10,565 nt of DNA from Desulfobacteraceae bacterium. Its GTDB lineage: Bacteria > Desulfobacterota > Desulfobacteria > Desulfobacterales > Desulfosalsimonadaceae. A model generated the notes under the pieces. It had not been told where the DNA came from. It worked only from the letters and a program-made list of their open reading frames with translations, and did no database searches. Where the stretch lies: the NCBI GenBank assembly GCA_007136525.1, contig SLGU01000314.1:1-10565 (forward strand), written 5' to 3'. The translations under genes and the position numbers were made by a program. How positions within the stretch are numbered: position 1 is the first letter of the stretch; each line of letters begins with the position of its first letter. This document shows, piece after piece, positions 1 to 10,565 of the stretch.

Positions 1-1359
1 ATTGCCGGGCCAGGCATATGATGCCATCAGCCTCAGCGCCCGGGGGGCAAAGCCGGGATGGCGCGGCTGGCACTTTTCCAGAAAATAGCGGGCCAGGGGC
101 ATGATGTCTTCCCGGCAGTCACGGAGTGCGGGGAGTTGCACCGGAATAACCGCCAGCCTGTAGTACAGGTCTTCACGAAACTTTCCCTCTTCCATCATTT
201 TCTGCAGGTTACGGTTTGTGGCGGCCAGGATGCGCGCCTGTACCGGTATCTGCCTGACGCTCCCCACGGGGCGGACCTCCCGTTCCTGGATGGCTCTGAG
301 CAGTTTAACCTGAAGCTCCAGCGGCATGTCCCCGACTTCATCGAGAAAAATTGTGCCCGCGCCGGCCTGTATGAACAGCCCGGTTTTGTCACGATCAGCG
401 CCGGTAAAAGAGCCCTTTTCATGGCCGAAAAGCTCGGATTCGAGAAGCGCCGGCGGCAGGGCCGCACAATTGACTGCTACAAAGGGTTCTTTCTCCCTCC
501 CGGAACGGCGGTGGATAAACCGGGCGATCAATTCCTTGCCGGTCCCGCTTTCGCCTATCAGCAGCACGTTGCTCGGTGTAGGGGCCGCTTTTTCGCTCAG
601 GGCGAGAACATTGGCTATTGCTTCGCTCCTGAAAATAATCCCTGCGTCGGCATCGACTTCGGCATATCCACTGCCCGGTTGATCTGATTCAGCACGCTGC
701 CGCTCCATTTCATTCCAGGCTTCCTGAAGCTGAACCCGCAAACGGGCCACTTCTTCTTCCATACCCATTCCGGTCAGATGACGGCGCCTCTTTTCCCGGT
801 CCAGGTTCCACTCACCTATGGGACGCCCTTCAAAATGGCAGACTGCATTTCCCTGGGCGCGGCAGGATGTTTCCCGGACGAGAACTTCACTCCCTAATAT
901 GGCACTGGCATAGCCGCTTGCAAATCCCGAAAGTATATGGCACACGGGGACGGTGCTCGTGCCGTGAGAACGCAGCCATTGCTCCGATTCCAGGGAGCCA
1001 CGCCATATCCCGTCCAAATGGAGTTCTTTGTTGGGACGATCCATCTTGTGGCGATAGCCATCGGTATAAGCAAGCCCGACGATGGAAATCAGGCGTCCGC
1101 AGGCTTCGAGCCATTCATTGTCCGAATCCCAATCATAGAGACCCGCCATTGCCGTAGCCACGGACATCCCGGCTTCAAATCCGTGTCGTGTCAGCATTTC
1201 CGTTGCCAATTCAGGTCCCAGGAGTTCGAAGAGATCGTTCTGGAGCAGCGAGAGTGAGCGGGCTCCCATGACCATCGTACGCGAGGATGCAAAAAGGGGT
1301 AAATTGCTTCCTTCAGACAAGGAAAACACTTCGCTGGATCGTAAATCCTCTGCGCGCAT
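1..1359 (-). CDS. XylR/DmpR-type sigma-54-dependent activator (3' end outside window)
   Basis: This is the first 453 codons of a cytoplasmic enhancer-binding activator of sigma-54 RNA polymerase. The start is the ATG at 1359, with GGAGA 8 nt upstream. Residues about 25-135 fit the XylR_N effector-binding domain. Residues about 136-190 fit the V4R zinc domain, with C140, E163, C166 and C174 at the spacing of the zinc ligands I recall from the phenol sensor MopR. Residues 195-225 form a charged, probably coiled-coil linker. The AAA+ domain follows: Walker A GESGTGK at 269-275, the sigma-54 contact loop as GSFTGA at 316-321 (Ser for the first Ala of GAFTGA), and Walker B with D340 E341 after TIFL. 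The window ends at WPGN, so the end of the AAA+ domain and the DNA-binding helix-turn-helix are not seen. In this family, binding of an aromatic effector to the sensor domain relieves repression of the ATPase. The gene is divergent from the catabolic cluster, whose sigma-54 promoter it very probably drives. The family is certain; the effector is unknown. Confidence 0.95.
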
Positions 1360-1390
1360 TGCGTTGTCTCCGTGTTAAGGGTGTAATTTT

Positions 1391-1429
1391 TTGTATTGCA
1401 ATTTACAAGCTCTTATTGAAAAATGCAAT
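1391..1429. promoter_or_regulatory. Candidate enhancer (UAS) for the divergent sigma-54 activator
   Basis: This AT-rich stretch in the divergent intergenic region contains several symmetric elements. TTGTA (1391-1395) and TACAA (1404-1408) form a perfect inverted repeat with an 8-nt spacer. That repeat encloses the palindrome ATTGCAAT (1395-1402). TGCAAT at 1424-1429 is the inverted partner of ATTGCA at 1395-1400. The block lies about 75-110 nt upstream of the -24 element, a normal place for a XylR/DmpR-type enhancer. It also sits just upstream of the regulator's own start, so autoregulation is possible. Symmetric AT-rich words arise easily by chance, so the assignment is tentative. Confidence 0.35.
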
Positions 1430-1502
1430 CATTTGTTCTCCTTCCAAAATATCTGTTGTCTATATATTATTGATTTCATATCTGAATATTTCACAGGAGC
1501 CG

Positions 1503-1520
1503 TTGGCATTGTTGTTGCAT
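1503..1520 (+). promoter_or_regulatory. Sigma-54 (-24/-12) promoter of the catabolic operon
   Basis: The sequence TTGGCATTGTTGTTGCAT matches the sigma-54 consensus TGGCAC-N5-TTGCW closely. The invariant GG is at 1505-1506 and the invariant GC at 1517-1518, giving the required 12-nt register. The only departure in the core is T for C after TGGCA. Transcription should start near 1530, which leaves a leader of about 120 nt before the BKACE gene at 1649. The promoter points away from the adjacent sigma-54 activator gene and into the six-gene cluster, the classical arrangement for a XylR-type regulator and its target. Confidence 0.85.
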
Positions 1521-1648
1521 CTTAATTGGACAGATCAGTTCCCCCGCGCTTTCCACCCGTTTCGATAAGACGCATCATCACCCATTAGAACCATGCAATG
1601 TTTGAAGGAATGTGATTTTGACCAGGTGCAACGGAAAGGAGGAGAGGT

Positions 1649-2527
1649 ATGAAGTCTGATTTGGTTTCAAGCGACAAAGTGATCATTACCGCAGCGATAA
1701 CAGGCGGCATCCACGGCAAATGGGCCAATGAGGCCATTCCGGTCACACCGGAGGAGCAGGCCCGGGATTCCCTGGATTGCTACAATGCGGGCGCATCCGT
1801 GCTTCATCTTCATGTCCGGGGGGCGGACGGTCAGAATACGCCCGATATCGGTACGTATAACGAAGCAGTCCGAAGAATCGGGGAAGCGTGCCCGATCATC
1901 CGCCAGATCGGCAACGGCATCGGCGCCAGGGTTGATGAAGCGCTCAACATCATTCAGCCGACCCTTGAGGAGCGTCTGAACCTTCTGACCATCGAACCGA
2001 AACCCGAAATGCACACGATCAATGCCGGGACTTTTGAATTCCGTACGCCCTACGGGGCGGGAACGTTCAACAATCCTCTCGACTTTAACGAGCAATATGC
2101 GGCAAAATGCAAGGAGAAGGGTTTTGGCGTCGAGATCGAGGTCTATGACCTGAGCCATATCGCCAACGCCCTCGAACTCACCGACAAGGGCGTGCTTTCC
2201 CCGCCATTGCACTTCAGCATCGTTTTGGGGATTATGGGAGGCGCACCGGCCAATGCTGACAACCTGATCCGCATGCTTGACGCCCTTCCCGAGGGTTCGA
2301 GCTGGCAGGTCGTTACCATCGGCAAGTATCATGTTCCAACCACGGTTATGGCAATGGCCATGGGGGGAAACGCCCGGACCGGTCTGGAAGATACCATCTA
2401 TTACGGAAAAGGTGAAAAAGCGAAAGGAAACGCACAACTGGTCGAACGGCTGGTCCGACTGGCCCGGGAACTCGGCCGCGAGCCGGCAACAGTCGAGGAA
2501 GCCAAAACCATGCTCGGCCTTCATTAG
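1649..2527 (+). CDS. Beta-keto acid cleavage enzyme (BKACE, DUF849)
   Basis: This 292-residue protein belongs to the family of Kce, the 3-keto-5-aminohexanoate cleavage enzyme. These zinc-dependent TIM-barrel enzymes react a beta-keto acid with acetyl-CoA to give acetoacetate and a new acyl-CoA. The family motif LHLHVR places the zinc-binding histidines at H53 and H55. The third ligand is E247 in the GLEDT motif near the C-terminal end of the barrel. E162 and E164 in the VEIEVYD strand include the usual conserved active-site glutamate. Length is normal. A variant active-site segment, RQIGNGIG (85-92), stands where many members have an STGG-like loop, which suggests a distinct substrate subgroup. 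The start is supported by AAAGGAGGAG at 1635-1644. It is the first gene of the operon. The family includes enzymes for lysine-fermentation intermediates, dehydrocarnitine and other beta-keto acids, so the exact substrate is open. Confidence 0.92.
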   Translation: MKSDLVSSDKVIITAAITGGIHGKWANEAIPVTPEEQARDSLDCYNAGASVLHLHVRGADGQNTPDIGTYNEAVRRIGEACPIIRQIGNGIGARVDEALNIIQPTLEERLNLLTIEPKPEMHTINAGTFEFRTPYGAGTFNNPLDFNEQYAAKCKEKGFGVEIEVYDLSHIANALELTDKGVLSPPLHFSIVLGIMGGAPANADNLIRMLDALPEGSSWQVVTIGKYHVPTTVMAMAMGGNARTGLEDTIYYGKGEKAKGNAQLVERLVRLARELGREPATVEEAKTMLGLH

Positions 2528-2538
2528 GAGGATCAACA

Positions 2539-3903
2539 ATGGGCACCGACACATCTGATGGAAAGCTCATCCCCAGTATCGGCTTCTGGGGTCTGTTAGC
2601 CATGTGCGTGGGGTTGAATATCGGCGGGTCGCTTTTTGCCCTGACTTCGCTTGCTGCCGGATTGAGCGGGCCATCCCTTCCCATCGCCATGATGATTTCC
2701 GCCATGCCGGCCTTGCTCGCCGTACTGCCATACAGCATCCTGACCTCTTCGATGCCGACCACCAGCGCCACCTACCGTTATGCCCAGATGGTCCATCCCA
2801 CGCTGGCGCTCGTGGTCATGCTCAGTTTAGGCATTACCATTCTGATCGGCGCCCAGCCCCTGTTCGGACTGGCTTTCGGCTCCTTTTTCAGGCACATCAC
2901 CCCGGTCAACCCGGTTGCCGTCGGCGTCATCGTGCTGACGATTTTCTATATCATCAACCTGCTGGGGATCAGCCTCACGGCGCGCATTCAGATCATCATG
3001 TTCTGCATCCTCATGGCGGCTCTTGGTCTCTACATCGTGATGGGGATACCCCACATTGAAGCCGCGAACTTCACGCCTCTCTACCCTATGGGGGCAGGGG
3101 GCGTGTTTGCCGCAGCCGGCCTTCTGTTTACCTTCTGCACCGGCGGATACTTCGTTATCGACCTGGGTGGGGAAGTGATCATGGCCCGCCGCATTTTCCC
3201 CAGGGTTCTGCTCCTCTCGATGGTCCTGATTATCGGCCTCTATCTTTTAATCCTGATGATTTCCGTGGGGGTTGTCCCATGGGGGTGGTTGGAAGGCAAA
3301 TCTCTGATCCACGTGGCAGAGCAGTTCATGTCCCCATCCGCCCTGATGTTTTTTATCATCGGTGGCGCCCTGACAGCTTGTGCAACAACAATTAATGTCA
3401 TCTTTTCCGTCGCGTCCCGGGCGACCATGGTGCTGGCCAAGGAAGGGCTTCTTCCCGAGGTCCTGGGACGGGTCCATCCCCGTTTCGGCACGCCCCATTG
3501 GGGGCTTACCGTAGGCTGGCTGATCTGCGTCGCGGCCCTGGTCACTATTCCATCCTTGATGTTTTTCGGTTCGATGCTCAACCTGGGTCTCATTATGGCT
3601 ATCACTGCGGTGGCTGCAGCCGGTTTTGTACTTCCATCCCAATATCCGGCCTTATTCCGGAATTCCCTGATCAATGTGCCGGGGTGGCTTCTTAAGGCCG
3701 CCTGCATCGCCATAATGGTCATTAACCTTTTAATCTTCTTGTTTTTCTGTGCCGCTATCGGCGCGGCCAGTTTCGTCTTTTTCGGAATCGTTCTTTTTTC
3801 ACTGGCCTATGCGTGGCTGCAGCGAAAGAAGATCCGGTCGCTGCGAAACACAATGAAGACAGACCCGGAACAATGGTTTAGAAACCTTCGGGGAGAAAAT
3901 TGA
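2539..3903 (+). CDS. APC-superfamily amino acid/polyamine-type permease
   Basis: This 454-residue, very hydrophobic protein has about 12 predicted membrane segments and a charged C-terminal tail (about 428-454). TM1 (about 14-36) contains the glycine-rich CVGLNIGGSLFAL stretch typical of the unwound substrate-binding helix of APC transporters. The segment around 195-220 (CTGGYFVIDLGGEV followed by ARRIFPR) corresponds to TM6 and the loop after it. SRATMVLAKEGLLPE near residue 296 is the conserved APC cytoplasmic loop. It most likely imports an amino acid, amine or related zwitterion through the inner membrane by cation or proton symport. The ribosome site AGGAGG (2526-2531) overlaps the stop codon of the BKACE gene, and its own stop overlaps the start of the SDR gene, so the three are translationally coupled. 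It is presumably the uptake system for the operon's substrate; the substrate is unknown. Confidence 0.9.
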   Translation: MGTDTSDGKLIPSIGFWGLLAMCVGLNIGGSLFALTSLAAGLSGPSLPIAMMISAMPALLAVLPYSILTSSMPTTSATYRYAQMVHPTLALVVMLSLGITILIGAQPLFGLAFGSFFRHITPVNPVAVGVIVLTIFYIINLLGISLTARIQIIMFCILMAALGLYIVMGIPHIEAANFTPLYPMGAGGVFAAAGLLFTFCTGGYFVIDLGGEVIMARRIFPRVLLLSMVLIIGLYLLILMISVGVVPWGWLEGKSLIHVAEQFMSPSALMFFIIGGALTACATTINVIFSVASRATMVLAKEGLLPEVLGRVHPRFGTPHWGLTVGWLICVAALVTIPSLMFFGSMLNLGLIMAITAVAAAGFVLPSQYPALFRNSLINVPGWLLKAACIAIMVINLLIFLFFCAAIGAASFVFFGIVLFSLAYAWLQRKKIRSLRNTMKTDPEQWFRNLRGEN

Positions 3904-4721
3904 AAAGGAAATCAATGTCTATGGTCGATTTCAAAGATAAGGTGGTCTGGATAACCGGCGCCTCTTCAGGCATCGGCGAAGCCTTGGCGTATGAATGGGG
4001 GCGGGCAAATGCCCGCCTGATTCTTTCTTCAAATGAACCCGATGAACTCGATCGCGTGGTTAAAGCGTGCCGTAAAAAGCAGTATGAAGCCGAAGCCCTG
4101 TTTGTCGATCTTGCCGACTCCGGCCGTATGCCGCAAGTCGTTAAAGAGGCTGTGAAAATATGGGGTCACGTGGATATATTAGTTAACAACGGCGGCATCA
4201 GCCAGCGTTCCATGGCAAAGGATACGGTTCTTGCGGTGGACCGGCTGATCATGGAAATCGATTATTTCGGCCACATTGCACTGACCAAGGCGATTCTGCC
4301 CTACATGGCCGACCGCGGATCCGGTCACATCGTGGTGACCACCAGCGTGGCCGGATTAATGGCTCTACCCCTTCGATCGGCCTATTGCGCCGCCAAACAT
4401 GCGCTGCACGGATTTTTCGAAACATTGAGGGCTGAAGTGTATGACGACGGAATCCGCATAACCCTTGCGGCGCCCTCAGCCGTCAGGACGGATATATCGA
4501 TCAAGGCACTGACTGAAAACGGCGGGCGGTTCAACCGGATGGACAGCCAGATCGACAAGGGGATCACGCCGGCGGCGTGTGCGAGGGCGATTGTCAGGGG
4601 GGTGTCCAAAGGAAAGGCCTTGATCGTTTTGGGAAAGGGACAGGGAAAATGGGGCGTGTATGTAAACCGGTTTTTCCCGGGGTTGTATCGGTTCCTGGTG
4701 CGGCGTGCTGAGGTGTTGTAA
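3900..4721 (+). CDS. Short-chain dehydrogenase/reductase (SDR)
   Basis: This is a classical SDR of 273 residues counted from the TTG at 3900. The Rossmann motif TGASSGIG lies at 19-26, the structural NNGG motif at 96-99, catalytic S149, and the YxxxK pair Y162 and K166. After strand 2 the sequence LSSNEPDEL has neither the usual NAD-type Asp nor a clear NADP-type Arg, so cofactor preference is undecided. Two starts are plausible. TTG 3900 overlaps the permease stop, with GGGGAG 4 nt upstream. ATG 3915 has AAGGA about 5 nt upstream and gives a protein five residues shorter that starts just before the usual SDR N-terminus. The enzyme probably interconverts an alcohol and a ketone. Next to a BKACE enzyme the simplest role is oxidation of a beta-hydroxy acid to the beta-keto acid that BKACE cleaves. 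The family is certain; the substrate is inferred from context. Confidence 0.92.
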   Translation: MKRKSMSMVDFKDKVVWITGASSGIGEALAYEWGRANARLILSSNEPDELDRVVKACRKKQYEAEALFVDLADSGRMPQVVKEAVKIWGHVDILVNNGGISQRSMAKDTVLAVDRLIMEIDYFGHIALTKAILPYMADRGSGHIVVTTSVAGLMALPLRSAYCAAKHALHGFFETLRAEVYDDGIRITLAAPSAVRTDISIKALTENGGRFNRMDSQIDKGITPAACARAIVRGVSKGKALIVLGKGQGKWGVYVNRFFPGLYRFLVRRAEVL

Positions 4722-4748
4722 CAATGAAATCGTAAAAGGAGTTTTCGC

Positions 4749-7370
4749 ATGAACTTTCACCCGTTCGATTCTCATAAAATTCAGACGGGCACACCAACAC
4801 GCTTCGATCATTTAAATGCGTTTCCGGTAAATCAAAGACTTAAAACCATCCGGCAGGAGATCCTCGATTCCGGCTACCACCTCTGTGTTCAGAAAGCTGC
4901 GCTGATAACCGAATACATGAAACGCCATGATCCCCAGCCCAAATGGCTCGGGCCTTTGCGCCGGGGTCACTACGCTTTTTATCGGAATTCAATGAAAAAA
5001 GCGACACAGGGGATACCTCAGCGCACCTGGCAGATTACTGCAAACAATCATCTGAGCCGCTTTTATCAGCGCCGGGGGCAAACCACGTCGTCTGAAACCC
5101 AGATCCTGTTTGCAGAAGCATTCCGGCATACACTCGAAAAGATGCAACTGAAAGTCTATGATCATGAGCTGATTGTCGGTAACCCTTCGTCTCGTCGGGT
5201 GGGGGCGCCCATTCATCCGGAACTGGGCGGGCTGCTGATGCTCCCGGAAATCGACCGCCTGGATACCCGGCCGAACAACCCCATACCCATTAATGACGAT
5301 CAGCGCCGGATGCTGAAGGAGAATATTTTTCCGTTCTGGTTTAACCGGTCCGTGCTGGGACTCGCACCGCTTTTTACAAAAAATCCCCAACTTTTCAGCC
5401 AGACCACCGAAGGCTGTTATTTTATCCTGACTCAGTTTGCCGGCATCTCCCACGTCACACCGGATTATCCCAAGGTCCTGCGGATCGGGTTTAAAGGGAT
5501 CAAAGAAGAGATAAAGCAACATCTGGATCAACTGGACCGGATGCCGGACAGCCGGGGAAATCCGGCGATAGAGAAGCAACGCGCTTTTTACCGGGCAGGC
5601 CTTATTTCAGCGGATGCGGCCATCGCATATGGGAAAAGATGGCGCCGGCATCTGGTTGAACTGGCGGCAGGTGAGCCCAACCCGGAAAGAAAAGAAGAAC
5701 TGGAAGCTTTGGCCGACATGTTTGGCCGGATTCCAGCTGAACCGGCCGTATCCTTTTACGAGGCGGTCCAAAGCCTGTTTATCACCCATGCCATGGTCCA
5801 CGCCGAAAACTTCCAGCACGGCGTTTCCTTCGGGCGGGTGGACCAGTACCTTTACCCCTACTATAGTGCGGACCTGGAAGCCGGGACGATAACGGCGGAG
5901 AAGGCAGTGGAATTTCTGGGGTGTTTTATTGCCAAAGCCGGTGAGCTCATCCCGCTGTTTTTCGACCGGGCCACTGAATTTTTCAGCGGGTTGTCTTCGG
6001 CCTCCGGGCTGACGCTGGGTGGCACCCTGCCGGACGGTTCTAACGGGGTCAATGAACTCTCTTATCTGTTTCTTCATGCCTACGATCAAATCCGGCTCCG
6101 GCAGCCGAACTTTCATGTCCGGGTCCACGGCAATACCCCTGCCGCATTTCTGACTCTGTGCGCCGATGTCCTGAAAAAAGGCGGCGGGCTGCCGGCTTTT
6201 TTCAACGATGACCAGGTTGTCAGGGCTCTTGTAAATACGGGATTCGGAGAAGCGGATGCTGCAAATTATTCCATTGTCGGGTGTGTCGAATGGGGGGTTC
6301 CGGGAAAGAGCTTTCCGGCAGCCGGCGCTATCTTTATCAATCTTCCCATGGCCCTTCATCTTGCCTTGCATAACGGGCAATTCAGGGAAAATGCGTTCGG
6401 CCCGCCAACCGGGGCGGCAAAAGATTTTCAATCGATGGATGAGATCATCGTGGCTTTTAAAACACAGCTTCGCCATATGATTGACATTGCGGTCGAAGGA
6501 AATGAAGCCATTGAAAAAGCCCATGCCCGTTATCGGCCAACCCCTTTTTTATCGATCCTGGTCGAAGGATGTCTGGAGCGCGGCATCGAGGTGAACAACG
6601 GAGGGGCGGTTTACGGTACGGCCGGCTGCCAGGGGGTGGGACTTGCCGATGTAGCCGATTCGCTTTCCGCCATTGATGAACTGATTTTTCGAAAAAAACG
6701 GTTGTCGTTTTCGGAGATGCTCGCTGCAATCGACGACAATTTTAAAGGCCGGGAAGATATCCGGCAGCTTATCGTCAATAGAACGCCCAAGTACGGCATC
6801 AACAGGGTTGAAGCCGACAGGTGGGCCCGCAGGGTTTCCGGGATCTATACCCGGGAGGTGTTCAGACACCAAAGCCACAGAGGCGGCCCCTATCTGGGCG
6901 GATTCTGGTCCATGACCACGCACCAGGGGTTCGGCGCACGCACCCCGGCCCTTCCCAGCGGCCGAAAAGACGGTGAGACCCTGGCAAATGGCATCTCTCC
7001 CATAAACGGGCGGGACAGGCTCGGCCCGACAGCGGCCATGGCATCGGCCGCGGCTATCGATACCGGTTACATCGGTAACGGCTGCGCCCTTAACATGAAA
7101 ATCAACCCGGACCAGATCCAGGGCCCTGAAGGGAGTCACCTCCTAGGCTGCCTGATAATGGGGTACTTTGACATGGGCGGCTGCCAGGTCCAGTTCAACA
7201 TCATTGACCCGGCACTGTTGATCGATGCCCGGAAACATCCGGAAAAATACCGGGATCTTGTGGTCAGGGTTTCCGGTTATTCCGCCTATTTCAATGATCT
7301 CACGGATGCCATGAAGGATGAACTGATTGACAGAACCCTTTATGACAGCCGAACGCTCTGCGGATGCTGA
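4749..7370 (+). CDS. Glycyl radical enzyme of the eliminase/dehydratase type, substrate unknown
   Basis: This 873-residue protein is a full-length pyruvate formate-lyase-like glycyl radical enzyme. The thiyl cysteine is C512 in GCVEWGVPGK, and the radical glycine is G843 in RVSGYSAYF, 30 residues from the C-terminus. The C512-G843 distance of 331 is close to that of choline lyase and glycerol dehydratase and shorter than in hydroxyphenylacetate decarboxylase. E514, two residues after the cysteine, matches the general base of the eliminating members; X-succinate synthases, as I recall them, lack it. The usual Pro after CVE is W515. The His-Asp pair that glycerol dehydratase has 13-14 residues after the cysteine is A525-G526 here, so a simple diol dehydratase is unlikely. 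The protein ends in the unusual tail CGC. The start at 4749 has AAAAGGAG 7 nt upstream. Its activase follows 38 nt later. Likely reaction: radical C-O, C-N or C-S cleavage of a small polar substrate in the cytoplasm. Family certain, reaction not. Confidence 0.95.
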   Translation: MNFHPFDSHKIQTGTPTRFDHLNAFPVNQRLKTIRQEILDSGYHLCVQKAALITEYMKRHDPQPKWLGPLRRGHYAFYRNSMKKATQGIPQRTWQITANNHLSRFYQRRGQTTSSETQILFAEAFRHTLEKMQLKVYDHELIVGNPSSRRVGAPIHPELGGLLMLPEIDRLDTRPNNPIPINDDQRRMLKENIFPFWFNRSVLGLAPLFTKNPQLFSQTTEGCYFILTQFAGISHVTPDYPKVLRIGFKGIKEEIKQHLDQLDRMPDSRGNPAIEKQRAFYRAGLISADAAIAYGKRWRRHLVELAAGEPNPERKEELEALADMFGRIPAEPAVSFYEAVQSLFITHAMVHAENFQHGVSFGRVDQYLYPYYSADLEAGTITAEKAVEFLGCFIAKAGELIPLFFDRATEFFSGLSSASGLTLGGTLPDGSNGVNELSYLFLHAYDQIRLRQPNFHVRVHGNTPAAFLTLCADVLKKGGGLPAFFNDDQVVRALVNTGFGEADAANYSIVGCVEWGVPGKSFPAAGAIFINLPMALHLALHNGQFRENAFGPPTGAAKDFQSMDEIIVAFKTQLRHMIDIAVEGNEAIEKAHARYRPTPFLSILVEGCLERGIEVNNGGAVYGTAGCQGVGLADVADSLSAIDELIFRKKRLSFSEMLAAIDDNFKGREDIRQLIVNRTPKYGINRVEADRWARRVSGIYTREVFRHQSHRGGPYLGGFWSMTTHQGFGARTPALPSGRKDGETLANGISPINGRDRLGPTAAMASAAAIDTGYIGNGCALNMKINPDQIQGPEGSHLLGCLIMGYFDMGGCQVQFNIIDPALLIDARKHPEKYRDLVVRVSGYSAYFNDLTDAMKDELIDRTLYDSRTLCGC

Positions 7371-7408
7371 GTATGAAGCAGTGGTAAGGCCATGAAAGGA
7401 CGCAGCCA

Positions 7409-8338
7409 TTGATGCCGGTTCATACAGCGACGATTTTCGATATACAGCGGTTTTCCATTCACGACGGGCCTGGTATCCGAACCACGGTTTTTTTCAAGGG
7501 GTGCACCCTGAACTGCCAATGGTGTCAAAACCCTGAGTCGATCCGGCCGGGAAAGGAAATGGCCGTCTATGGTGACCGGTGCATCGGATGCGGCATGTGT
7601 GCTAAAATCTGCCCGAACGGAGCGATCTCAATCCGAAACCCCGGTCGGATCGATTGGGTGCTGTGCGATAGCTGCGGCATCTGCGCTGAAACATGTCCCG
7701 CCGAGGCGCTGGTTGTCGTGGGGCAAGACATAACGGCCAATAACCTGCTGACCGAATGCCTGGCGGACCGCTCTTTTTACAACAGGTCCGGGGGAGGCGT
7801 GACCTTGTCCGGCGGTGAACCGGTCATGCAGTCGGAGTTCCTGCACACCTTTTTGCCCTTGCTGCAACAAGAATCTGTAAGCGTGCTCATGGAGACCGCG
7901 GGTCACTATGCTTTTTCAAAAATTGAGCCGCTCCTGCCGATGCTCGACCATATTTATTACGACTTTAAGCTGCCTGGCCCTGAGGAATATTGGGCGATGA
8001 CAGGGGGCGACCTGGCGGTCATATATGAGAACCTGGCCAAATTGAAAAAACGGGCAGTTCCGCTGACCGTAAGATTTCCGGTCCTCCCCGGCATAAACAC
8101 GGCGCCGGAACAGATTGGCCGGATCGGCAGCACCCTGCGCGCGCTCGGAATCATTGAGCTGCAGGTGCTTGCCTACAATCCGTTCTGGGAATCAAAACTT
8201 TCCCGGTTGCAGACGGAAAAACGGCCGCTTATGCTCTCTGACAAAGATATCGATTACAGGCGCATCGCTGATTGGTTTGAAAAAACCGGCATTGTTCCCG
8301 AGCTTCCCGCCCACCATGGAACCCGAAATGCCGGTTGA
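7409..8338 (+). CDS. Glycyl radical enzyme-activating enzyme (radical SAM)
   Basis: This 309-residue radical SAM activase uses S-adenosylmethionine and a [4Fe-4S] cluster to abstract hydrogen from the radical glycine (G843) of the preceding enzyme. The radical SAM motif CxxxCxxC is C32, C36, C39. It is followed by an inserted two-cluster ferredoxin domain with C58, C61, C64, C68 and C86, C89, C92, C96. This insert is typical of activases for choline lyase, glycerol dehydratase and related enzymes and is absent from the pyruvate formate-lyase activase. The SAM-binding GGE motif is in TLSGGEP (132-138). The N-terminal segment FDIQRFSIHDGPGIRTTVF is the family signature. The start is TTG 7409 or ATG 7412; AAAGGA ends at 7400, which gives 8 or 11 nt of spacing. 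The 3' end overlaps the exporter gene. Pairing with the upstream enzyme is as sure as context allows. Confidence 0.96.
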   Translation: MMPVHTATIFDIQRFSIHDGPGIRTTVFFKGCTLNCQWCQNPESIRPGKEMAVYGDRCIGCGMCAKICPNGAISIRNPGRIDWVLCDSCGICAETCPAEALVVVGQDITANNLLTECLADRSFYNRSGGGVTLSGGEPVMQSEFLHTFLPLLQQESVSVLMETAGHYAFSKIEPLLPMLDHIYYDFKLPGPEEYWAMTGGDLAVIYENLAKLKKRAVPLTVRFPVLPGINTAPEQIGRIGSTLRALGIIELQVLAYNPFWESKLSRLQTEKRPLMLSDKDIDYRRIADWFEKTGIVPELPAHHGTRNAG

Positions 8339-9059
8339 ATATGTAATTATCCTAATCCTTGCCCTGGGCGGGTTCACATTCAGTTTCGCCGGGTTCGGAT
8401 TCGCCCTTGTTACGCTCCCCTTTCTTTCTCTGCTGCTCCCGGTCAAGCTCTCGGTGGGGTTTATCTTTCCTTATGTCCTGGTCCTGGTCCTGTACCATAC
8501 CGGCCGCTTTGGAAAGCTTCTCGACCGGCGCATCCTGTTTCCCCTGATTGTCGGGGCCTGCCTGGCGATCCCTTTCGGACTCTGGTCCCTGCACATTTTT
8601 CCGGAAGTATGGCTTAAAAGATGTCTGGCTGTATTCATCGTTTTGTCTGTGACGGCCGGCCGGCTACCGGGGTTCATAAACATAACCCAGGTCAGGCGGA
8701 CCGGGCGGACCCGGGTATGGGGTCTTGTATGCGGTCTGATCGGTGGGTGGTTTCAAGGGGCATATGCCGCCGGTGGGCCTCCGGCGGTCGTCTACATCCG
8801 GTCCATCGAAGACAATCCGGAAAAAGCCAAAGGATACCTTGGCGCTTATTTTTCTGTTATCAACCTGCTGACCGCCGTCATGTTCGCTTTCGGAGATGTA
8901 TTTACCACCCAATGGCTCTGGAATTCATTGGCCTACAGCCCTGCAGTGCTGGTCGGCACTGTTGCGGGCGCCCTGCTGTCGAACAGGATCGATGCCCGTG
9001 TTTATCGCGCTGCCGTGGATCTGCTGTTGATTGTCTCGAGTGTCATGCTTTGGATTTAA
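8316..9059 (+). CDS. TauE/SafE-family membrane exporter (possible sulfite or sulfonate exporter)
   Basis: This 247-residue membrane protein has about eight hydrophobic segments in two related halves, as expected for TauE/SafE (YfcA-like) permeases. The first half begins with GGFTFSFAGFGFALVTLPF. The second carries the equivalent GLIGGWFQGAYAAGGPPAVV around residues 140-160, followed by the conserved stretch EKAKGYLGAYFSVINL. The reading frame is open upstream to 8115, but that part lies wholly inside the activase gene, so I chose ATG 8316; ATG 8328 is equally possible. The overlap with the activase is 23 or 11 nt, so translation is probably coupled. Known members export sulfite or sulfoacetate after sulfonate breakdown, but the family also moves other anions and many members are uncharacterised. 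As the last gene of the cluster it probably removes a product. Sulfite export would imply a sulfonate substrate for the glycyl radical enzyme, which is inference. Confidence 0.88.
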   Translation: MEPEMPVEYVIILILALGGFTFSFAGFGFALVTLPFLSLLLPVKLSVGFIFPYVLVLVLYHTGRFGKLLDRRILFPLIVGACLAIPFGLWSLHIFPEVWLKRCLAVFIVLSVTAGRLPGFINITQVRRTGRTRVWGLVCGLIGGWFQGAYAAGGPPAVVYIRSIEDNPEKAKGYLGAYFSVINLLTAVMFAFGDVFTTQWLWNSLAYSPAVLVGTVAGALLSNRIDARVYRAAVDLLLIVSSVMLWI

Positions 9060-9172
9060 ACGGGTCGTTGAAAATCTTGATGCCCTGCTGCGTCTCTGCG
9101 GAATTAATAAAAAATTAAAAAAGATGCAGGCAAGCAGCGCCCCTACAATATAATCAGTTGCATAAAAACTAC

Positions 9173-10111
9173 TTATTCAGACATCGCAACAAATTGAAGT
9201 ATTTCCTTCACCACTTTTTCCGGGGCTTCCAATGGCAGAAAATGACCGGCTTTTTTGATCATCCGGTACCTGCCCCCGGCGTGCCCGATCTCTTTTTCAC
9301 AATTTTTGAACATGGCGCTGGAAATACAATGGTCCGTTTCCCCGCTCAATATTAGGGCCGGTGCCTGGACCGGCGCCAGAAACAGGCGCCGGCTGCGGTT
9401 CCATTTGGCCAATTCGCCCGGGGGCGGTCGCAGAAGCCCCCGGTAATAGGCCAGGGCGGCCCGCAGGCTGTGGGGTCGGGAAAGCGTGTCAATGACTTCG
9501 GCCATGCGCTCCCGGAAAGGGGACATGTCCCCGCTCCAGTCCCGCCAGAGCTTGGCAATAAACTCGCCGTGGCCGGATCGAATGATATGTTCGGGCAGGT
9601 CGGGCACCTGGAAGAACAGGATGTACCAGCTCCGGGCCAACTGGGAAGGGTTCGTGAACAGGTTCCGAAGAAAGGCGGGCCCCGGCGGCACCGACATCAT
9701 GACGGCTTTGTCGTACAGGTCGCCGCGGTGGTTGACTGCGCCGTAGGCGGCAATTGCGCCCCAGTCATGGCCCACCAGGTACACGGCTTTCAGGTCATAA
9801 CGCGCTTTTAATTGCAAGGTGATGGCCGCGGCGTCCGCTGCGAGATCGGCAATCTGGATGGTGGCGAACCGTGACCCGCGTACGGATTCCGGGACCGAGG
9901 TGGGCCAGTAGCCGCGCATATAGGGCGCCGCACACATATAACCGGCGTCATTGAGGATGCGCATCATCGGGAGAAAGGACCGCGCATCATCGGGAAAGCC
10001 GTGCAGCAGAAGCATTAATCTATCTGAGCGGCCGGAAACCAGGATTTCAAATTCCAGCCCGTTGGCATTCATGCGAATCGATTCCATGGTGTCTTCTTCC
10101 TCAGGCTTCAT
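9173..10111 (-). CDS. Alpha/beta hydrolase, epoxide hydrolase-like
   Basis: This 312-residue alpha/beta hydrolase has an Asp nucleophile. The oxyanion motif HGFPD is at 37-41. The nucleophile elbow VGHDWG places D116 at the catalytic position, as in epoxide hydrolases and haloalkane dehalogenases rather than esterases. D260 in SGETDH and H290 in KAGHFLPLE complete the triad. The lid has SWYILFFQ (161-168) and AYYRG (221-225), whose tyrosines sit where epoxide hydrolases carry their ring-opening residues. The expected reaction is hydrolysis of an epoxide to a diol. The ATG at 10111 overlaps the stop of the upstream gene (ATGA), suggesting coupling. ATG 10087, eight codons later with GAGGA upstream, matches the usual family N-terminus better and may be the true start. 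It is transcribed towards the glycyl radical operon, so it belongs to a different transcription unit. Confidence 0.88.
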   Translation of the reverse strand: MKPEEEDTMESIRMNANGLEFEILVSGRSDRLMLLLHGFPDDARSFLPMMRILNDAGYMCAAPYMRGYWPTSVPESVRGSRFATIQIADLAADAAAITLQLKARYDLKAVYLVGHDWGAIAAYGAVNHRGDLYDKAVMMSVPPGPAFLRNLFTNPSQLARSWYILFFQVPDLPEHIIRSGHGEFIAKLWRDWSGDMSPFRERMAEVIDTLSRPHSLRAALAYYRGLLRPPPGELAKWNRSRRLFLAPVQAPALILSGETDHCISSAMFKNCEKEIGHAGGRYRMIKKAGHFLPLEAPEKVVKEILQFVAMSE

Positions 10112-10565
10112 CGCTTCTGCTGATCGAACATGCTGAAGAATTGCCGCAGTTCGCGGGTATTTCCCGCGGTCACTTCAAGCTCTCCGGTAAGAAGGGCCCA
10201 GGCCTGTCCTGCCAGGCCGGTTTTGCCGAGCAGCATTTTGGCCCAGGTGGTGCGCGGCAGCCTGATGGCCAGGTCCGGGTTTTCCGGAAAATGATCCAGG
10301 TATTCGGCGACCCCTTTGCGCACATGCATGCCGAAGCCCTGTTCGATATCGGAAAAGTAAATGCCGAACACCTGGTCAACGTCGGCGCTTTCTTCAGGAT
10401 CAAGGGCAAAACGGAGCGCCCTGACAAAAAAACCGGGACGGGACCGCAAAATGACCTCTTCGGTGATCAAGGCAGGCGGAAGATCGAACCGGTCGACCTT
10501 GCCCTCCAGTTCCAGGGCCTGGGTGATGTAAAAATTGCGGGTGATGGCGGCGGGCGTTGCCTGTC
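10108..10565 (-). CDS. Alkyl sulfatase-like protein, C-terminal part (5' end outside window)
   Basis: The last 151 residues of a longer protein are visible, read in frame from the right edge with no start codon needed inside the window. Near the edge, RNFYITQALELEGK resembles the end of the dimerisation domain of SdsA/BDS1-type alkyl sulfatases, where a segment like RNxYLTGAxEL is usual. The rest fits the SCP2-like C-terminal domain of these enzymes: RALRFALDPEES, then HVRKGVAEYL, then a threonine-leucine-rich TWAKMLLG segment and a closing helix. Such proteins carry an N-terminal metallo-beta-lactamase domain that hydrolyses alkyl sulfate esters to alcohol and sulfate. That catalytic part, with its zinc-binding histidines, is not in the window, so activity cannot be judged. 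A free-standing SCP2-like protein or a lactamase-fold relative with another substrate remains possible. Its stop overlaps the start of the hydrolase gene by 4 nt. Confidence 0.65.
   Translation of the reverse strand, partial: QATPAAITRNFYITQALELEGKVDRFDLPPALITEEVILRSRPGFFVRALRFALDPEESADVDQVFGIYFSDIEQGFGMHVRKGVAEYLDHFPENPDLAIRLPRTTWAKMLLGKTGLAGQAWALLTGELEVTAGNTRELRQFFSMFDQQKR

Follow-up and report, generated by a model that had tools for sequence, protein, structure and literature searches.

What does an oxygen-sensitive glycyl radical enzyme (GRE) do in an operon that also encodes a beta-keto acid cleavage enzyme (BKACE)? This question is raised by contig SLGU01000314.1 of the Desulfobacteraceae bacterium assembly GCA_007136525.1, and the stretch of 10,565 nucleotides analyzed here is designated as the window. 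A preliminary description, made from the sequence alone, had listed a XylR-type regulator, a sigma-54 promoter and six tightly packed genes, and all of them were found with matches to the corresponding families (Table 1). The operon is genuine and regulated, and its GRE belongs to a subfamily without a characterised member. The six plus-strand genes are separated by gaps of 1 to 38 bases, and the regulator is divergent from them. The view of this set as a self-contained unit under sigma-54 control was borne out, with the same promoter geometry at the same place in three metagenome-assembled genomes (MAGs) of Desulfobacteraceae (loci L001, L005, and L007).

The regulator contains XylR_N, V4R and sigma-54 AAA+ domains (Pfam), and its best match by sequence among solved structures is CapR (6iy8). 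Its orthologues at L001, L005, and L007 show 78%, 54%, and 54% identity. In the intergenic region between the regulator and the first gene, the −24/−12 element scores 10 of 11 in the window, 10 in L001, 11 in L005, and 10 in L007, against a background of 0.09 matches scoring at least 9 per kb per strand in the loci examined. Two more matches with score 9 were found in the window, both within the regulator gene. ATTGCATATTNCAAT-like sites start at 1395 (plus strand, three mismatches) and 1415 (minus strand, one mismatch) in the window, 20 bases apart. The same inverted pair with the same spacing is present in L001 (5682/5702) and L007 (7741/7761), and L005 has a single weak ATTGCATATTNCAAT-like site at 7998 (three mismatches). 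The consensus was drawn from these same sequences, and the mismatch counts are therefore biased in its favour. Matches with zero or one mismatch number four among the 75 related loci described below (2.3 Mb, both strands), all from L001 and L007; this exclusivity and the equal spacing are better evidence for the putative upstream site than the mismatch counts. The arrangement resembles the XylR/DmpR (CapR) family in the three regulator domains, the divergent −24/−12 promoter and the upstream inverted repeat, but genes for aromatic oxidation are absent among the nine window proteins scanned. A regulator-like gene (48–49%) was also observed directly upstream of a different GRE (32%) at L057:4401-8073 and L058 (Desulfatibacillum).

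The translated GRE has intact C512-V-E514 and R-V-S-G843-Y (RVSGYS) motifs, whose Cys, Glu, and Gly are invariant across 29 aligned sequences. The CXE motif is described as a feature of the GRE eliminase class (PMC7077986), and on this motif, the glycyl radical loop and the dedicated radical-SAM activase encoded beside it, the window GRE is placed in the CXE eliminase class. The translated activase has intact CX3CX2C and two intact ferredoxin-type clusters. The GRE exceeds the cut-off of the Pfam PFL-like family (578 bits, cut-off 24.3) and falls narrowly under that of TIGR01774, the PFL2-3/glycerol dehydratase subfamily (655.3 vs. 678.2). It was rejected as the hydroxyproline dehydratase HypD (NF043068, 532 vs. 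1100), the choline trimethylamine-lyase CutC (TIGR04394, 474 vs. 1050), and the sulfopropanediol enzymes HpsG/HpfG (NF048011/NF048009, 486 and 478 vs. 1000). The earlier view of the enzyme as a glycyl radical eliminase was supported, and it lies under the cut-offs of the characterised families that matched.

The closest characterised enzyme to the GRE is glycerol dehydratase. The B12-independent glycerol/propanediol dehydratases (1r8w, 5i2g, and 9rco) show 34% identity to the window GRE over the fold alignment. His164, His281, and Glu435 of glycerol dehydratase are kept, but S282, Y339, Y640, and D447 are replaced, the last by Gly526 in the alignment. His164, His281, Asp447, and Glu435 of glycerol dehydratase are among the residues that mark the glycerol/diol dehydratase GREs. 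Unlike the glycerol/propanediol dehydratase systems, the window has no microcompartment or aldehyde-dehydrogenase families among the nine proteins scanned. Archaeoglobus fulgidus PFL2 (2f3o), which is not known to have an established function, differs from the window GRE at W515, H357, and the SSASG segment.

By its PF05853 match and its catalytic residues, the first protein of the operon is assigned to the BKACE family. The ligand and catalytic residues HLH (53/55) and R243-x3-E247-D248 are kept, and H53, H55, R243, E247, and D248 are invariant in 29 sequences. The best solved match is Kce (2y7d), but the protein was rejected as Kce (258 vs. cut-off 382), and Glu14 of Kce, presumably the residue holding the substrate amino group, is replaced by Ile21. 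Because of this replacement, a lysine-fermentation intermediate is unlikely to be the substrate. K24 was considered as a mark of an anionic substrate and dropped, as Kce has Arg there. The motifs TGASSGIG and YxxxK of the short-chain dehydrogenase/reductase (SDR) are intact.

Table 1. Coordinates of the features of the window and of related loci. The starts of SDR and TauE were set at a later ATG by choice, and their coordinates are approximate.
Feature	Location	Strand	Basis or remark
XylR-type regulator	1..1359	-	PF06505 51.6 bits, PF02830 46.8 bits, PF00158 233.6 bits; C-terminal DNA-binding part beyond window edge
Putative upstream activating site, inverted ATTGCATATTNCAAT-like 15-mer pair	1395..1429	.	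Repeat in relatives
Sigma-54 promoter TGGCAT-N5-TTGCA	1504..1519	+	Score 10/11; GG and GC in exact register
BKACE	1649..2527	+	PF05853 290 bits
APC-superfamily permease	2539..3903	+	PF13520 83 bits
SDR, NCBIfam PRK06181 group	~3921..4721	+	NF004825 226 bits (cut-off 215)
SDR-GRE junction	4722..4748	.	27 bases; 333-aa OleD-like extended SDR here in L001, none in window
GRE, 873 aa, CXE-eliminase subfamily without characterised member	4749..7370	+	Invariant CxEWG
Radical-SAM GRE activase, two ferredoxin-type clusters	7409..8338	+	TIGR02494 272 bits (cut-off 174)
TauE/SafE-type membrane exporter (by family)	~8340..9059	+	PF01925 93.6 bits (cut-off 32.6)
BKACE-APC cluster without GRE	L133:9771-17414
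BKACE-APC cluster without GRE	L134:4369-10843
BKACE-APC cluster without GRE	L137:6006-12219
GRE-dsrAB locus	L002:7537-12610
GRE-dsrAB locus	L019:7454-12613
GRE-dsrAB locus	L004:3-4819

A terminator scan gave 16 matches vs. 9.2 expected, with none on the plus strand from 9059 to 9172, and a sigma-70 scan gave 6 matches vs. 5.5 expected. An alpha/beta hydrolase and, upstream of it, a C-terminal piece of an alkyl sulfatase are encoded on the minus strand at 9173-10563, convergent with the operon. They are not counted in the unit.

Tentatively, the GRE may perform a 1,2-elimination on a hydroxylated acid, and the resulting beta-keto acid may be split by the BKACE; this preferred reading is regarded as possible rather than probable. 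In a relative of the Desulfobacteraceae, the locus would then serve as a catabolic operon that is induced by its substrate and depends on sigma-54. On sensing a small molecule, the V4R regulator would activate the single promoter from the paired upstream site, and a hydroxylated organic or amino acid would enter through the APC permease. Once activated by its radical-SAM partner, the GRE would abstract a hydrogen beside the hydroxyl and eliminate the neighbouring group to give a keto compound; this group would most likely be water, as in diol dehydratases. The SDR, together with an extended SDR in the relatives, would adjust the oxidation state of the neighbouring carbon, the BKACE would use acetyl-CoA to cleave the beta-keto acid to acetoacetate and an acyl-CoA, and TauE would export an anionic by-product. 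The uptake, the chemistry, the order of the steps and the leaving group are what we infer from the gene set, and the order proposed in the preliminary description (uptake, radical cleavage, oxidation, carbon-chain cleavage, and export) is plausible.

How constant this gene set is was examined in species genomes using an alignment of 29 GRE sequences (29 of 120 listed homologues), and the best 80 of 101 relatives gave 75 loci. Genes were called with a home-made codon model, and partners were counted within six genes of the GRE; the counts are lower bounds, as the loci are often cut by contig ends. The GRE is at least 45% identical in 25 of the 75 loci, which come from Thermodesulfobacteriota, Dehalococcoidia, Myxococcota, Binatota, Bdellovibrionota, and others. 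The activase accompanies this GRE in 18 of these 25 loci, an extended SDR in 16, the SDR in 11, the regulator and TauE in three each, and the BKACE and the APC permease in one each. Where at least 1.5 kb is available on both sides (17 loci), the activase is present in 13, the extended SDR in 12, the SDR in 10, and the BKACE in one. The GRE subfamily is sizeable: the best 120 of 3516 matches are all at least 50% identical.

The sole locus of the 25 with both the BKACE and the APC permease is L001, in which all seven genes of the unit are present with 77–87% identity. L001 also encodes, between the SDR and the GRE (9003-10004), a 333-aa extended SDR of the NAD-dependent epimerase type, whose best family score is to OleD (165 bits, cut-off 580). 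No significant match to it was found in the window with tblastn (best E 0.037, 18 residues), and the window is thus a reduced version of the cluster, unless the extended SDR sits elsewhere in the genome. In L005 and L007, the regulator, promoter, SDR, extended SDR, GRE, activase, and TauE are present, and another membrane carrier replaces the APC permease (a marginal Glt_symporter match in L005 and no Pfam match in L007).

A second, distinct type of GRE (30–45% identity) was observed across several phyla, at L046:7446-17279 and the similar L035, L042, L050, L051, L056, L060, L061, L063, and L071. Its partners are an extended SDR, an SDR, two CoA-transferase-type proteins, an MmgE/PrpD protein, an acyl-CoA dehydrogenase, and a 146-aa protein. 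Of the 46 loci in this identity range, the two CoA-transferase-type genes are present in 17 and 18, and an activase was called nearby in 11. At L030:748-6022 (Deltaproteobacteria MAG), putative CoA-transferase family III-like (by the sequence start) and TetR-like genes precede the GRE.

The BKACE and its permease were also found together elsewhere. Close BKACE and homologous permease pairs are present in L133 (70% and 54% identity), L134 (70% and 55%), and L137 (68% and 49%). The clusters in L133 and L134 include a LarA homologue (in L133, NF052592, 419 bits, cut-off 740), a 3-hydroxyacyl-CoA-dehydrogenase homologue, TauE, and an extended SDR with 53–55% identity to that of L001. L137 has the LarA and dehydrogenase homologues, and TauE and the extended SDR are absent on its 12.7-kb contig. 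With a limit of 1e-90 on E, BKACE homologues turned up in 1 of 389 genomes of the Desulfobacteria class (an even draw from a larger group), in 1 of 52 in the phylum of genome G045, and in 2 of 42 in the class of genome G046, with the centre genome counted in each case; on these counts, the close BKACE form is rare, and a widespread linkage of BKACE and GRE was rejected. A linkage of the BKACE with the second-type GRE in G046 and G045 was rejected, as the genes are on the same contigs but about 15 and 173 kb apart.

Contigs were also matched by exact size, using 75 of 120 GRE, 120 of 120 BKACE, and 110 of 120 APC listed homologues. BKACE and APC homologues share 16 exact contig sizes (15 at 5 kb or more vs. 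0.12 expected after jittering). Homologues of GRE, BKACE, and APC share two contig sizes, 29,315 and 18,237 bases. For each size the matches come from a single source collection, and judging from the identical sizes, these two metagenome contigs probably carry all three together. The matching misses the known positives, the window and L001, and its negatives prove nothing: a GRE identical to that of the window is listed on a 7,384-base contig, and the 54,850 bases of L001 appear only in the APC list. A gene-neighbourhood check had been suggested for the pairing of GRE and BKACE; the co-occurrence held in L001 and probably in the two metagenome contigs, and failed in 24 of the 25 loci. The six genes cannot be maintained as a fixed unit either, as the BKACE and APC genes are near the GRE in 1 of 25 loci and three of the four close BKACE-APC pairs have no GRE.

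Among the papers listed in searches of the openly licensed literature, none joins a GRE and BKACE or Kce in one pathway, and no title or start of an abstract describes this gene set; within this scope, the claim that no named pathway combines the two stands. In the available part of PMC12482172, GRE and BKACE appear in separate choline and carnitine routes. TauE beside a GRE is not new, as the Enterococcus gilvus dihydroxypropanesulfonate cluster contains TauE with a GRE dehydratase (PMC11489063). That HpfGH-HpfD-HpfE/HpfXYZ-TauE pathway resembles the window in combining a GRE dehydratase, an activase, a dehydrogenase, and TauE as a probable exporter, but the available text describes no BKACE, APC, or XylR-type regulator, and the window GRE is below the HpfG cut-off (478 vs. 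1000). The Pseudomonas carnitine dehydrogenase-BKACE pathway (PMC12482172) shares the conversion of a 3-hydroxy acid to a 3-keto acid followed by BKACE cleavage. It differs in that the window has an SDR and a GRE and no 3-hydroxyacyl-CoA-type dehydrogenase, and betaine genes were not seen; the clusters in L133, L134, and L137 are most like this pathway. It is conceivable, if rather unlikely, that in an undescribed anaerobic route the GRE, or in other lineages a LarA-like nickel-pincer enzyme with a dehydrogenase, is an interchangeable front end making a free beta-keto acid for the BKACE from a hydroxylated acid. In one reading, a 2,3-dihydroxy acid would be dehydrated directly by radical chemistry to give a 3-oxo acid, and another would be an elimination from a 3-hydroxy-4-substituted butyrate. 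PMC11770544 deals with 2-hydroxy acids, and the LarAH15 described there is a gluconate 2-epimerase. This was not taken as a substrate clue, as the numbering there need not match the NCBIfam LarAH14/15/16 model.

Several observations weigh against an elimination of water that feeds the BKACE. In 24 of the 25 loci (16 of 17 with flanks of at least 1.5 kb), no BKACE lies within six genes of the GRE. The genomes of L005 and L007 (G003 and G004), which share the regulator and promoter and may be incomplete, gave no BKACE match. The reaction of the GRE need not end in the BKACE, because the latter is absent near most such GREs and from these two genomes. Conversely, the GRE is absent from the BKACE-APC cluster in G045, G046, and G510, three of the four genomes with a close pair. 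This rarity of the BKACE link weakens the claim of a fixed six-gene pathway. The extended SDR, the commonest partner of the GRE after the activase, is absent from the window, the GRE does not retain D447 of glycerol dehydratase, and its sequence score to CutC is nearly as high as that to glycerol dehydratase. Further, the GRE lies beside dsrAB in three Dehalococcoidia, and by its family TauE would fit sulfite or sulfonate equally well. TauE is a probable 3-sulfopropionate exporter in a GRE-dehydratase cluster (PMC11489063), and for this reason its presence does not decide between water and sulfite.

The GRE could instead be a sulfite-lyase acting on a beta-hydroxy sulfonate and feeding sulfite respiration, with TauE handling sulfite or sulfonate; this is considered unlikely. 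In Dehalococcoidia L002, L004, and L019, the GRE (55–57%) is divergent from dsrA-dsrB at a distance of about 200 bases. dsrA scores over the curated cut-off in all three and dsrB in the two tested, the dsrB of L004 being cut by the contig end; dsrC was also observed near the genes in L002 and L019. These three genomes are related, and their arrangement perhaps reflects one event. dsrA is also present in the genomes of L001, L003, and L005, and TauE at the window, L001, L005, and L007. Among the genomes with this GRE type, however, dsrA was found in 7 of 26 (8 of 29 searched; G078, with a GRE of 45% after rounding, is counted), and it was not found in six myxobacteria/Myxococcota genomes or in the incomplete genome of L007. 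Sulfite-releasing GREs are known, such as IslA (PMC8473560), whose sulfonate-binding residues are Arg189, Gln193, and Arg678; Gln193 is equated there with the CutC Asp site. When the window GRE is aligned to CutC, His235 falls on the Gln193 site and Ala231, four residues earlier, on the Arg189 position, and the remaining active-site residues are diol-dehydratase-like. The residue at the Asp216 site of CutC, His in the window GRE as in glycerol dehydratase, also bears on C-N cleavage, in which ammonia or trimethylamine would be freed from an amino or quaternary-amine substrate imported by the APC permease, and the BKACE would take a related keto acid. This is decidedly unlikely, even though the permease is present, BKACE is known in carnitine catabolism (PMC12482172), C-N cleavage is the reaction of the GREs CutC and HplG, and a CutC chain ranks third among the solved relatives by sequence. 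The score to the CutC equivalog is 474 against a cut-off of 1050, HplG is weakly related (297 bits), the L005 and L007 clusters use another carrier, and the release of an amine would not need TauE.

It is also improbable, in our view, that the operon joins two independent modules under one promoter, a BKACE-APC cassette having been inserted into an older module of regulator, SDR, extended SDR, GRE, activase, and TauE, with another substrate and the same inducer. In its favour, the cassette occurs without this GRE in G045, G046, and G510, and in L005 and L007 the GRE module, governed by an orthologous regulator and promoter, has no BKACE. On a tree of 70 GREs built by a quick method, the BKACE label changes four times vs. 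a mean of 4.0 in shuffles and is thus no more clustered than shuffled labels, a result partly due to near-identical or unread rows counted as unlabelled; the quick method also gave warnings on long branches and composition. The four BKACE-linked rows are nevertheless split between two starred clades (99 and 97), which hints at repeated association, although most of the unlabelled rows come without known context. TauE and an extended SDR accompany both modules.

Under the preferred reading of elimination followed by BKACE cleavage, the operon probably lets an anaerobic bacterium feed on a hydroxylated organic acid. The GRE subfamily is broad across phyla, without an assigned substrate in any source found, and a locus equipped with a regulator, promoter, permease, and BKACE of its own helps to narrow down the candidates. 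The products of BKACE are easily assayed, the promoter can serve as a reporter for the inducer, and dsrAB near the GRE in relatives makes the sulfur alternative testable. Solving the chemistry of this GRE would name that of many unannotated clusters from anoxic settings.

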